The notes under the pieces are model-generated. The model ran no database searches. It saw only the letters and a list, made by a program, of their open reading frames with translations, and was not told where the DNA came from. From positions 3,596,001 to 3,660,000 of the forward strand of contig NZ_CP030034.1 of assembly GCF_006874625.1 (NCBI RefSeq): a DNA stretch of 64,000 nucleotides. The letters are read 5' to 3'. Numbering within the stretch: the stretch's first letter is position 1; every line of letters begins with the position of its first letter. Made by a program: the position numbers and the translations under genes. This stretch comes from Bdellovibrio sp. NC01 (GTDB lineage Bacteria > Bdellovibrionota > Bdellovibrionia > Bdellovibrionales > Bdellovibrionaceae). Below, piece after piece: positions 29,226 through 35,834 of this stretch.

Positions 29226-30047
29226 ATGAAAAAGGTTTTTCTATCTTGCACGTTGCTCTTCACGGGTCTTCTTCTGACTTCTTGTACGAGCTATTTTAAA
29301 AGACAAAGCTGCGAGAGTATCAATTGGTATGAACACGGTCGCCAAGTCGCTTTGCGCGGTCAATGGTTGAATGCCGATCAGACTTTGCAAGAATGTCGCA
29401 AAGTTGAAGCGAACGTCAATGAGTCGCAAGTAGATCTTGGTTTCAAATCAGGTATGGGCGAATACTGTACGCCGCAAAAAGCTTATCAAATCGGTAAAGC
29501 AGGAGACGCTTTCCACCGCGATATCTGCGAAGGTCCGTCGATCACAAGTATCCTGAACAAATACACACAAGGTATTAACGATTACTGTTCTAAAGCGAAT
29601 GCTTTTGCAGCAGGTGCTTCCGGCAAGAAATATCAAAACGTGTGTTCAGTGAAACAAGAAAAAGACTTTTTGCCTGGTTACCGCAAAGGCAGAAAGAAAT
29701 TCGTCGAATCACAAATTACTGACAAAGAAAATCAACGTCAGCAATTGAACTTCACGATCGTGACAAAACAAGCTGATTTGAACAATGCTTATGGCGAACT
29801 TAATAATCTGCAAAACCGCAGAAGCTTCCTGGAAATGCAAAGAAGCAACGCTTTAGCAGCGCAGAATCCGACACAGGCAGGCTATATCGAAGGTCAGATT
29901 AATTCTTTGACGACAGATATTAGCTTGAAACAGTCCGATGTGAATTCTAAGAAAAGTGATCTTGAGTCCGTGCGCAAACAACAAGATCAATTGGGTGCGG
30001 ATATCTCTGCATTCAGAGCTGAGCTTCCAAGCTTAGACGAAAACTAA
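29226..30047 (+). CDS. DUF2799 lipoprotein
   Basis: The 273-residue protein has a lipoprotein signal peptide with lipobox LLTSC (Cys20). The DUF2799 region covers about residues 28-165 with repeated Cys residues and 'WYEHGRQVALRG', 'FKSGMGEYCTPQKAYQIGKAG'-like segments. The last 100 residues form a long Gln/Asn/Leu-rich coiled coil. Function unknown; probably anchored to a membrane facing the periplasm. It follows the ABC-F gene by 12 bases, and its stop overlaps the stop of the convergent gene by four bases. Confidence 0.85.
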   Translation: MKKVFLSCTLLFTGLLLTSCTSYFKRQSCESINWYEHGRQVALRGQWLNADQTLQECRKVEANVNESQVDLGFKSGMGEYCTPQKAYQIGKAGDAFHRDICEGPSITSILNKYTQGINDYCSKANAFAAGASGKKYQNVCSVKQEKDFLPGYRKGRKKFVESQITDKENQRQQLNFTIVTKQADLNNAYGELNNLQNRRSFLEMQRSNALAAQNPTQAGYIEGQINSLTTDISLKQSDVNSKKSDLESVRKQQDQLGADISAFRAELPSLDEN

Positions 30048-32577: not shown

Positions 32578-32895
32578 ATGTTCTCAGAATTTTGTTTATC
32601 TCACTTTGGTATCAATAAGAGTCGCCTAGGAGCTTTGCTGTTGCTAAGCATGCTCTGTTCTTTGAGCGCATGCTCATTAGACGCTGACATCGCTTCATTG
32701 GAAAAAGCGCTTTCCACTAGTTTTTCAAAACCGACAACAGCCGAAGTAACTCCAGCAAGCACACAGAACTCTTACACAACTCGCGGATATAAAGTTCAAG
32801 CTTCATTAAGCTATCAAAATACCAATTCAGATGGAACGACAACTCGAGGATTCAAAGTAAATACGAACGTTCAAGGCTCAATCTTCAAGGAGTGA
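32578..32895 (+). CDS. Small lipoprotein coupled to the fibre gene
   Basis: The 105-residue protein has an N-terminal hydrophobic segment with lipobox LSAC (Cys32; a second Cys sits at 27 in SMLC). The mature part is short, Ser/Thr-rich and carries two copies of a TTRG[YF]KV motif ('TTRGYKVQA' and 'TTRGFKVNT') about 23 residues apart. The AAGGAG site of the fibre gene overlaps its end, and its TGA lies five bases before the fibre ATG, so the two are one transcript with coupled translation. I do not recognise a family. The start has no clear ribosome binding site. Confidence 0.7.
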   Translation: MFSEFCLSHFGINKSRLGALLLLSMLCSLSACSLDADIASLEKALSTSFSKPTTAEVTPASTQNSYTTRGYKVQASLSYQNTNSDGTTTRGFKVNTNVQGSIFKE

Positions 32896-32900
32896 GAACC

Positions 32901-35834
32901 ATGAAAACACCATGCATCTTTCTTGGAAATTTAGTGTTCGCCTTGTTGCTACCCACTTTCACTTGGGCAGGCGCGGTTATCACTTATCATGGTCGACTTC
33001 TTGATCAAAACGATCAACCACTGGAAGCAGCGAACGTGACATTTCGCATTCGCATTTTTAGTCCGAGTCCTAAAAAATGTCTTCTTTACGAGGAAAGTCG
33101 AACTGTAAATATGACGGCTTCACAAGGTGTGTTTGTGATTCCAATCGGCGACGGCTCAGGCACTCGTTCGGGCGACGATCCGGGTCTTACGATCGAAAAT
33201 ATTTTCGCTAATAATGGTACGACTATTTCTAATTTGGTCTGTAACTCAACGAGTTCTTATACTTCTCAGACATTAGATCAACGCGAAATGATTGTTTCAT
33301 ATGATGATCATACAGGATATGGCTGGGACAATCTTCCTTCCATGGCTTTAAATTATGTGCCGTTTTCTGTGAACTCTCACGATACTCAGAATGTGGGTGG
33401 TACTGCTGCAAAATCTGTATTGCGTGTCGTAGATCCAAATCCCGCAAATCCTGCATTCGATGCCACGCCTTTAACGCCCGCTGGTTTCACGCAGTTGATG
33501 TCGTTAATTAACGGGACGTCTACTCAATATGAAAAAGCCGGAAAACTCAATGGCACAACGGTTCCATCGTTAACTAACGGGCAAGTCCTTGGCTGGAATG
33601 GTGGAGCTTGGACTGCGGTAACGCCGATGACTTCCTATACAGAGACCGACCCTTCGGTAAAATCTTTTGCAAAATCGAACCTGCCGACTTGCGCTGCAAA
33701 TTCATTTTTAAAAAATGATGGTTCTGGAAATTTGGTGTGCGTGGTCGCTTCAGGAACAGCATCAGGCACAGTCACAAGTGTGGCTGCGGGAACAGGATTA
33801 AAAACGGATCAAGCAAGCAATGCCGCTATCACTAGTTCGGGAACGCTTGCCGTCGACGTAGGAACCGGCGCAAATCAAGTCGTGCAATTGGATTCATCAA
33901 GCAAGTTACCGGCAGTGGATGGATCGCTTCTAACGAATGTTGTAGCTTCTAGTTTATCAAGCTCAGCTTCGATTAATATTTCAGGAGATATCGTATCCAG
34001 TAACGGCAACATTCAAACGAATAAATCGCTCACGGCCAAAGATGCGCTCTATCTTTATGATGCGAAAACTCCAACACCAAGTTCTGTTGGTTTAAAAGCT
34101 CCTGCAAACGTAACGGCCAGTTATATTCTAACGTTGCCGACAGCCCAGGGTACTTCAGGCCAAGTACTTGGAATGAGCGCAACGACAGGGCAGCTTTCTT
34201 GGATCAGCCCGAGCACAGGCACAGTGACAAGTGTCACTGCAAGTGCGCCACTTGCTTCAAGTGGAGGCGCGACTCCTAATATTTCTTTGCCAAAAGTGGA
34301 TGCAACTCAAGACGGTTATTTGTCTAAAACGGATTTCAGCGCTTTCAACAATAAGCAACCGGCTGGAAATTACATTACAACATTAACAGGCGATGTGACT
34401 TCCTCCGCATTCAGTTCGGGATCTGTGACCACAACAATTGCAAACAGCGCAGTGACGGCAACGAAAATGAATTTTGGTGGAGTGAATAGCGCGACGTCAA
34501 ATCTTGTGGTCAGCGATTCGACCGGAAAATTTTATTCTTTTGGTTGTAGTACTGCCGGACAGGTCGCTACTTGGACTGTCGCGGGCTGGGGTTGTGCTGC
34601 GACCAGCATTAATGCTTTAAATGATTTACCTGACGTCTATGTGTACGCTCCGGGCAACGTCATCTTTTTTGGGCCTGGTACTTCCCCTCCGGCGACAGAA
34701 AGCGGTGGTACGGGCGGAAACACAGTATTCGGTGCTAAGGCAATGGCAGTGAATCAAAACGGTGGTCAGAATACCGCGTTTGGCGCAGAGACGCTTTCTT
34801 CATCGACCTCAAGCTCTGAAAACTCTGCCTTTGGTTGGCAGGCACTGCTGTCAAATACAACGGGACAACTCAACACTTCAATTGGCGCTGAGTCGATGAT
34901 CGGCAATACGACCGGCAGCGAAAACTCTGCAATCGGTACCGGCGCACTTGGGGGCATAGGCAGCGGCAATAACAACTCCGCCATCGGTGCTTGGTCAGGA
35001 CAGGGACTCAAATCGGGAAGTTATAACGTCATCATCGGTTCTCAAGCTGTGGGCAGCTCGCCGAACTCTTCAACATTTAATAACAATACGATTGTTGGTA
35101 GCCGCTCTGCACGCTATCTAACAACTGGTGCAGATGCCAACGTTGTTCTTGGTTATCAAGCCGCTAACAACTTAACGACCGGTGCAAACAATATTATTAT
35201 TGGCAATAACATCAGCGCGGTAACTGCGACTTCAAGTAATACACTGAACATTGGAAATTTGATTTTTGCAAATAGCGTTGACGGCACGGGCACTACTTTA
35301 TCGACAGGCAAAGTCGGTATTGGTGTGAACAGCCCAGCTTATAAACTGGATGTTGCCGGAGACATTAACACTTCAACGTGTTTCCGCATTGGTGCATCCG
35401 TTGTTAGCGGCACCTGTGCCTCGGATCAAAGATTGAAAGAAAATATTCAAGATTACTCTCAAGGACTTAAAGAACTTCTGAGTGTTCGCTTAAGAACATA
35501 TCGCTTCAATGGCTTGGGTGAAATGCCTAAAACTGGTGAAACAGCTGTTGGTGTTATCGCGCAAGAACTAGAGCAAACAAATCCCGATCTTGTGAAGCCG
35601 CGTTTGGTGAAAATGCATCCAGAAGATACCGAACTCACTGAAATTAAAACGGTCGATTACTCGAAGTTTTCGTACATGCTTATTAACGCCGTGAAAGAGC
35701 TCTATGCAAAGCTTGTTAACCAAGATCAGTCTCTTGAAATTCACAATAGACAAATCCTTGCTTTGCAAAAAGAGAACGCCGAACTCAAAGCCCGCTTAGA
35801 CCGCCTGGAAAAGTCCATGCAGGGTTCCCAGTAA
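32901..35834 (+). CDS. Surface fibre/adhesin with YadA-like repeats and Peptidase_S74 chaperone domain
   Basis: The 977-residue protein starts at ATG 32901, eight bases after AAGGAG (GTG three codons earlier is less likely). A signal peptide ends at TWA near residue 20. An N-terminal domain 'VITYHGRLLDQNDQPLE' is followed by a long Ser/Thr/Gly-rich shaft. Residues about 600-780 hold YadA-head-like repeats ('NSAIGTGALGG', 'NTVFGAKAM', 'NVIIGSQAVG'). From about 840 'SDQRLKENI' begins a Peptidase_S74 domain (intramolecular chaperone of trimeric tail spikes), and a coiled coil closes the chain. The family resembles the trimeric fibres (MAT proteins) Bdellovibrio uses to recognise prey, as I recall from published work. 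Function here is inferred. Confidence 0.87.
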   Translation: MKTPCIFLGNLVFALLLPTFTWAGAVITYHGRLLDQNDQPLEAANVTFRIRIFSPSPKKCLLYEESRTVNMTASQGVFVIPIGDGSGTRSGDDPGLTIENIFANNGTTISNLVCNSTSSYTSQTLDQREMIVSYDDHTGYGWDNLPSMALNYVPFSVNSHDTQNVGGTAAKSVLRVVDPNPANPAFDATPLTPAGFTQLMSLINGTSTQYEKAGKLNGTTVPSLTNGQVLGWNGGAWTAVTPMTSYTETDPSVKSFAKSNLPTCAANSFLKNDGSGNLVCVVASGTASGTVTSVAAGTGLKTDQASNAAITSSGTLAVDVGTGANQVVQLDSSSKLPAVDGSLLTNVVASSLSSSASINISGDIVSSNGNIQTNKSLTAKDALYLYDAKTPTPSSVGLKAPANVTASYILTLPTAQGTSGQVLGMSATTGQLSWISPSTGTVTSVTASAPLASSGGATPNISLPKVDATQDGYLSKTDFSAFNNKQPAGNYITTLTGDVTSSAFSSGSVTTTIANSAVTATKMNFGGVNSATSNLVVSDSTGKFYSFGCSTAGQVATWTVAGWGCAATSINALNDLPDVYVYAPGNVIFFGPGTSPPATESGGTGGNTVFGAKAMAVNQNGGQNTAFGAETLSSSTSSSENSAFGWQALLSNTTGQLNTSIGAESMIGNTTGSENSAIGTGALGGIGSGNNNSAIGAWSGQGLKSGSYNVIIGSQAVGSSPNSSTFNNNTIVGSRSARYLTTGADANVVLGYQAANNLTTGANNIIIGNNISAVTATSSNTLNIGNLIFANSVDGTGTTLSTGKVGIGVNSPAYKLDVAGDINTSTCFRIGASVVSGTCASDQRLKENIQDYSQGLKELLSVRLRTYRFNGLGEMPKTGETAVGVIAQELEQTNPDLVKPRLVKMHPEDTELTEIKTVDYSKFSYMLINAVKELYAKLVNQDQSLEIHNRQILALQKENAELKARLDRLEKSMQGSQ

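Follow-up and report, generated by a model that had tools for sequence, protein, structure and literature searches.

A small lipoprotein as a probable envelope partner of MAT fibers in Bdellovibrio

We analyzed a 64,000-nucleotide (nt) stretch of the Bdellovibrio sp. NC01 genome (contig NZ_CP030034.1, positions 3,596,001 to 3,660,000; hereafter the window), part of a single-contig genome of 3.98 Mb. In it, the gene for a 105-amino acid (aa) lipoprotein directly precedes the gene for a mosaic adhesive trimeric (MAT) fiber. On balance, we favor the reading that the lipoprotein is a dedicated envelope partner of the MAT, its tail binding the trimeric N-terminal domain (N-domain) and holding the fiber base at the cell surface. 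MATs with a divergent N-domain would have a private partner, and those with a canonical N-domain a shared one. The sequences themselves provide gene coupling and pairing by N-domain type, co-occurrence across genomes, co-variation of tail and N-domain, and a lipobox.

Results

The lipoprotein gene runs into the translation start of a MAT gene

The pair comprises the following features, in window coordinates.

32578..32895 (+): MAT-partner lipoprotein gene, 105 aa (open reading frame (ORF); family alignments A3 and A6)
32578..32670 (+): predicted lipoprotein signal peptide, residues 1-31, lipobox LSA followed by C (sequence reading; Cys32 invariant in A3)
32671..32676 (+): Cys32-Ser33, the predicted lipidated Cys and +2 Ser (A3; +2 residue counts; Lol rule)
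32743..32886 (+): C-terminal tail, residues 56-103, strand repeats EVTPASTQ, YKVQASLS, and FKVNTNVQ (repeat comparison; model; N-domain co-variation)
32887..32892 (+): Shine-Dalgarno sequence AAGGAG of the fiber, within the last two lipoprotein codons
32901..35834 (+): MAT fiber gene, 977 aa from ATG (alternative GTG at 32892)
32961..33425 (+): MAT N-domain NF053851, divergent type (36% identity to a canonical MAT N-domain)
34719..35210 (+): YadA-head-like repeats, far end placed by eye (17-residue spacing; no Pfam match)
35421..35597 (+): Peptidase_S74 intramolecular chaperone/protease (Pfam)

As the preliminary description had proposed, the lipoprotein gene ends inside the ribosome-binding site of the fiber: AAGGAG covers its last two codons, and its stop codon follows at 32893-32895. 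The alternative fiber start, GTG at 32892, would give 980 aa and a 4-bp overlap with this stop; we favor the ATG at 32901 because of its 8-nt spacing from AAGGAG. Read by eye, the lipoprotein signal consists of K14/R16, a hydrophobic stretch, LSA, and Cys32. The two TTRG[YF]KV repeats described earlier are present (TTRGYKV at residues 67-73 and TTRGFKV at residues 88-94) and belong to a longer conserved tail, in which a third, weaker strand precedes them. No Pfam or NCBIfam family was found for the lipoprotein, apart from one chance-level NCBIfam row (E = 0.025), and a search of PDB sequences with the family profile A3, up to E = 1, listed weak matches to LpqN and Gluebody alone.

By its sequence, the fiber is a member of the MAT family, in line with the earlier label "prey-recognition-type": it matches Bdello_MAT_N (NF053851) at residues 21-175 (E = 6.9e-32; 110.5 bits against a curated cut-off of 60). 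A hydrophobic start, MKTPCIFLGNLVFALLLPTFTWAG, directly precedes this domain and reads as a signal peptide. The expected Peptidase_S74 tail (PF13884) lies at residues 841-899 (E = 3e-11), with SDQRLK recognized by eye. The fiber thus has the N-domain and S74 layout of MATs, differing in that its N-domain is divergent and accompanied by a private lipoprotein. The YadA-head-like repeats stood in part: N[TS].[FI]G repeats with 17-residue spacing occur at residues 607-692 and resemble YadA heads by eye, but Pfam lists no YadA family for this fiber up to E = 1. Nor does the Pfam listing contain an autotransporter domain, and the fiber had no match among PDB sequences up to E = 0.01. By analogy with known MATs, we expect it to be trimeric and located at the surface.

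A model of the fiber N-domain built from four sequences reached a mean pLDDT (predicted local distance difference test score) of 59, with blocks of 56-81 over residues 11-130. Its best matches (Foldseek E = 0.04; VIA-align Z = 6.2, root-mean-square deviation 3.1 over 90 residues) were not taken as a fold relationship, as such Z levels are common between unrelated beta sandwiches.

Divergent MATs mostly have a private lipoprotein

The NC01 genome contains 23 S74 matches and 30 MAT N-domains, 28 of them canonical (54-100% identity to the canonical query) and 2 divergent (36%). The two divergent MATs are the window fiber and one at 2443 kb (L021), and a lipoprotein gene lies directly upstream of each. 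A second genome, G003, we infer to be that of B. bacteriovorus HD100. It has 21 MATs, the published number (PMC10769870), and its fibers of 1151, 1031, 1107, 922, 843, 627, and 626 aa agree with the lengths or final construct residues published for Bd1334, Bd2133, Bd2439, Bd3182, Bd2734, Bd2740, and Bd2872. Its 14 canonical MATs (190-234 bits with our own profile) all lack an upstream lipoprotein with the tail, and directly downstream of one of them lies the shared lipoprotein. Six of its seven divergent MATs (99-168 bits) have an upstream lipoprotein, at most 53 bp away or overlapping, and near the seventh, Bd2872, a 210-aa lipoprotein with a MAT-partner-like tail is encoded about 0.9 kb off on the opposite strand (L293:527-1159, -).

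In NC01 and G003 together, a lipoprotein lies directly upstream of 8/9 divergent versus 0/42 canonical MATs (p = 1.4e-8). ORFs that our lipobox script flagged before three canonical MATs (L026, L297, and L291) were not counted, the tail being absent by eye. The preliminary description had held that related fiber genes consistently lacking such a partner would speak against the pairing. This is what we found for a private lipoprotein before canonical MATs, yet a shared homolog is nearly always present in the genome.

Two further samples extend the comparison. Genome G014 has divergent MATs only, seven in number, and four of the six examined have a lipoprotein directly upstream. Among 18 MAT starts sampled from eight genomes of the taxonomic family without a lipoprotein profile match at E = 0.001, 11 (L270-L273, L278-L280, and L282-L285) have, no more than 84 bp upstream, a lipoprotein whose tail is related (for example, GGWSVSIDNSDPVEKTSLANGWTVEVLDE).

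In HD100, six MATs have been deleted, and a predation defect followed for Bd2734 and Bd2740 only (PMC10769870). Both are divergent, and both have an upstream lipoprotein.

Canonical MATs are accompanied by a shared lipoprotein

A third, related lipoprotein of NC01 (98 aa) is encoded 29 bp downstream of a run of three canonical MAT genes. Used as a query, it matched 43/66 family genomes at E = 0.05 or better. Within the genus, it is present in 20/24 genomes (E values of 2.4e-25 or lower), where its tail resembles LVSGSTQ..Y.VQSSVGNYMSGIEQTT..YKVYSSVQGAIVS. It is missing from G011, G014, G016, and G024, of which G011 alone has canonical-type MATs: the best N-domain E value is 2.5e-75 in G011, 5e-37 to 5e-33 in the other three, and 4e-58 or better in the remaining 20 genomes. 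With genomes divided by this score, a split set after the scores were seen, the shared lipoprotein occurs in 20/21 genus genomes with canonical-type MATs versus 0/3 without (p = 0.002).

Conservation of the lipoprotein without a nearby fiber had also been named as counterevidence. It does occur, at five genus loci (L139 and L147-L150), but the genomes concerned (G013, G019, G007, G004, and G020) hold 3 to 23 MATs elsewhere. At L139, L148, and L149 the neighbors, named by eye, are those of NC01: the preceding gene is of EamA or pseudouridine-synthase type, and the following one is prmA-type.

Lipoproteins and MATs co-occur across genomes

Profile A3 was built from 23 family members, to the others of which the window lipoprotein is 23-41% identical. 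It matched 53/66 family genomes (E = 0.01), and the MAT N-domain profile matched 61/66 (E = 1e-5). All five genomes without MATs by this profile are also without the lipoprotein (p = 1.4e-4), although one of them, G030, has two weak MAT matches by the NCBIfam model (best 9.7e-8). In the class, the lipoprotein occurs in 66/143 genomes (E = 0.001) and MATs in 105/143 (E = 1e-5), with MATs in 63/66 lipoprotein-bearing genomes versus 42/77 others (p = 9e-9); the exceptions are G110, G111, and G121, the match in the last being doubtful. Across the phylum, 65/368 genomes gave a match at E = 1e-4; all but one of these belong to the class.

We fetched 80 regions around the better A3 matches, containing 83 lipoproteins. 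The preliminary description had suggested looking for similar lipoproteins before other fibers, and 38 of the 83 do precede a same-strand MAT or S74 fiber gene at a distance of no more than 400 bp; another 14 follow one, so that 52/83 adjoin a fiber. At L196, L206, L211, and L213 the lipoprotein is near a fiber in another arrangement. Larger lipoproteins with this tail at their C-terminus occur in other families of the order, encoded directly before MAT genes (L251-L254) or, in L250, 2.4 kb before. Eight order-level loci have no MAT in reach of the lipoprotein (L247-L249 and L255-L259; two are contigs of less than 5 kb).

In some lipoproteins, lipobox and tail are separated by a Big_1-like insert (L251:1343-2050; L253:1788-2414, -; and, within the family of NC01, L264:6580-7173), an arrangement that might set the tail at a greater distance from the membrane. 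The likeness (E = 4e-6 to 1.5e-4) is below the Pfam cut-off; L293 and L021 were tested too and matched no family. A search for fused lipoprotein-MAT frames among weak matches in long frames found none in the two fetched, L261 and L262. These (L261:1799-5518, -, and L262:2089-6066, -) are lipoproteins in frames of 1239 and 1325 aa, with only the lipobox and a CSLDA-like start in common with the family. Weak matches L034-L036 in NC01 were taken as chance.

The tail co-varies with the fiber N-domain

An initial set of 61 pairs from 35 genomes gave a correlation of r = 0.868 between distance matrices of the lipoprotein (last 62 residues) and the adjacent fiber N-domain. Removal of one false pair (L307, a fiber end misread as a lipoprotein) left 60 pairs with r = 0.885, a value that none of 2000 within-genome shuffles reached (mean 0.50). 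The signal is highest at the N-domain: in 46 pairs the tail correlates at r = 0.91 with the N-domain versus 0.74 with the next 150 aa of the fiber, and in 39 complete fibers at r = 0.45 with the last 150 aa. The first 20 residues of the mature lipoprotein, a short piece, correlate with the N-domain at r = 0.35. For the shared lipoprotein a distance-vector test was mixed (r = 0.51, 0.56, 0.49, and 0.26, equaled by 5, 0, 4, and 9 of the 60 private tails).

The tail reads as a strand repeat, and the +2 residue points to the outer membrane

In A3 (23 rows), Cys32 and Tyr71 are invariant, and S33, S59, Q63, V73, G78, T88, Y92, V94, Q99, and G100 are nearly so. Tail segments 2 (YxVQSSVG) and 3 (YKVYSSVQ) are clearly alike, with a mean score of 14.6 versus a shuffled mean of -3.5. 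Segment 1 (LVSGSTQ) resembles them more weakly (scores of 2.0 and 2.1; 18 and 1 of 4000 shuffles as high). For this comparison, segments were chosen by eye in nine non-redundant rows.

The residue after the lipobox Cys is Ser in 35 and Asp in none of the 61 script-called pairs, a count in which at least two rows (L021 and L166) have a Cys wrongly placed by the script. By the Lol sorting rule, a +2 Ser directs a lipoprotein to the outer membrane. Because Ser predominates and Asp is absent, we favor the outer membrane as the probable site of the lipoprotein.

This placement bears on a different role, that of an export or assembly chaperone like SadB. Such a protein would meet the N-domain in the periplasm, keep the three chains in register, and aid display of the fiber, without being its final anchor. 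SadB is a lipoprotein encoded upstream of the trimeric adhesin SadA that improves its display (PMC3953254), and MAT pairs have the same gene order as sadBA: a small lipoprotein just upstream of an adhesin that, in MATs, is known to be trimeric (PMC10769870). SadB likewise has a paralog elsewhere without an adjoining adhesin (PMC3953254). An assembly role is a live rival because SadB aids adhesin display from the inner membrane. The differences are that SadB is trimeric, is located in the inner membrane, has been likened to MATH domains (PMC3953254), and serves an autotransporter, a domain type that Pfam does not list in the window fiber, whereas MAT partners have a strand-repeat tail of about 50 residues, form a large and diversified set of pairs, and bear the +2 Ser. 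The A3 search of PDB sequences up to E = 1 listed neither SadB nor YajI, in a set not checked for SadB and without a direct comparison. Taken together, we consider a SadB-like role rather unlikely, though worth weighing.

A further parallel, likened by description only, is FAD-I of Fusobacterium, a small lipoprotein in the operon of the adhesin RadD. RadD belongs to another adhesin class than MATs.

Other observations

We found no relative of the lipoprotein in viral contigs. In the viral collection, one contig codes for a protein of 526 aa (L267:5932-7512) with a YQGRL-type N-terminal domain that is distantly similar (36% identity over 59 residues) to the MAT N-domain, which may therefore occur outside Bdellovibrionota. 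In the window, about 2.5 kb before the lipoprotein/fiber pair, a DUF2799 protein (E = 3e-24) with a lipoprotein-like signal lies at 29226-30047.

Discussion

We propose that the lipoprotein is lipidated at Cys32 and probably seated in the outer membrane, from where its C-terminal strand-repeat tail would dock onto the N-domain of the trimeric fiber and keep the fiber base at the predator surface. For most divergent MATs the partner would be private and come from a coupled gene upstream; canonical MATs would have one homologous lipoprotein in common. The suggestion that the lipoprotein serves as anchor or assembly partner gains support, as to partnership, from synteny, co-occurrence, and tail/N-domain co-variation. 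A more tentative extension, which we regard as possible but speculative, is a stoichiometry of one lipoprotein per trimer. Each of the three tail strands would join one of the three N-domains, so that a plug of pseudo-threefold symmetry would fill a threefold socket. A lock-and-key code of private tail/N-domain pairs would then allow one predator to carry about 30 fibers on shared and dedicated bases.

Several findings weigh against the envelope-partner reading. Not every divergent MAT has its partner: in G014 one MAT follows another in tandem and one (L305) is without a lipoprotein. Of the 18 sampled MATs, the remaining 7 (L268, L269, L274-L277, and L281) have none upstream. Bd2439 and Bd3182 also have an upstream lipoprotein, yet their deletion caused no predation defect (PMC10769870). 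Conversely, 31/83 lipoproteins have no same-strand fiber within 400 bp, five of them the shared genus copies noted above and several others stand-alone genes outside the genus, and those of G110 and G111 bear the tail in genomes where no MAT was detected, being much like the lipoproteins of G109 and G112, which do have MATs (L248, L249, L255, and L256). In G011 the shared lipoprotein was not detected, despite 20 MATs that score as canonical. The third canonical MAT of the cluster there (L286:3900-7833) is truncated; after it, in the place expected for the shared lipoprotein, come low-complexity sequence and an HNH/DUF222 gene. An insertion may plausibly have removed the lipoprotein gene. The single-chain lipoprotein model, with three strands, is of low confidence (pLDDT 57).

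Excluding close relatives also lowers the co-variation. At N-domain distances above 0.4, 0.5, and 0.6, r falls to 0.76 (35 pairs), 0.69 (28 pairs), and 0.64 (23 pairs), with 0, 18, and 132 of 2000 within-genome shuffles as high, in subsets where few genomes hold two pairs and power falls. Close linkage alone could give a co-variation that fades along the fiber. The two genes might then be neighbors only, staying adjacent because of translational coupling and common timing while their products make no contact. Linkage is indeed very close, which by itself yields matched trees: the gap from lipoprotein stop to fiber start is -4 in 24/61 and -8 in 13/61 pairs, as measured to the start codon nearest the stop, a choice biased toward overlaps. 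However, the tail co-varies with the N-domain more than does the lipoprotein's own mature start, private lipoproteins occur with divergent N-domains only (in the two genomes compared), and the shared homolog persists away from fibers and tracks the presence of canonical MATs. Linkage does not explain the shared copy, which accompanies canonical MATs from a distance. We therefore regard mere neighborhood as improbable, and continue to favor an envelope partner.

MATs are found on the outer surface of attack-phase cells, and some of them end up in the vesicle left in the prey (PMC10769870). The latter raises the idea of a release or quality-control partner that holds the fiber base until invasion and then frees the fiber into the prey vesicle. 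As we noticed no sequence feature pointing to a release step, we give this idea very little credence.

The surface element expected to bind the constant MAT N-domain awaits identification (PMC10769870, 2024). The main text of that paper does not contain the word "lipoprotein" (term count 0), nor does PMC12034629 (term count), and our literature searches returned no paper on such a MAT-partner lipoprotein. For the attachment of Bdellovibrio fibers to the surface, these lipoproteins are deletable, testable candidates. In HD100, if G003 is correctly assigned, one shared homolog could serve 14 canonical MATs. The lipoprotein is probably a missing piece that holds or assembles the prey-recognition fibers.

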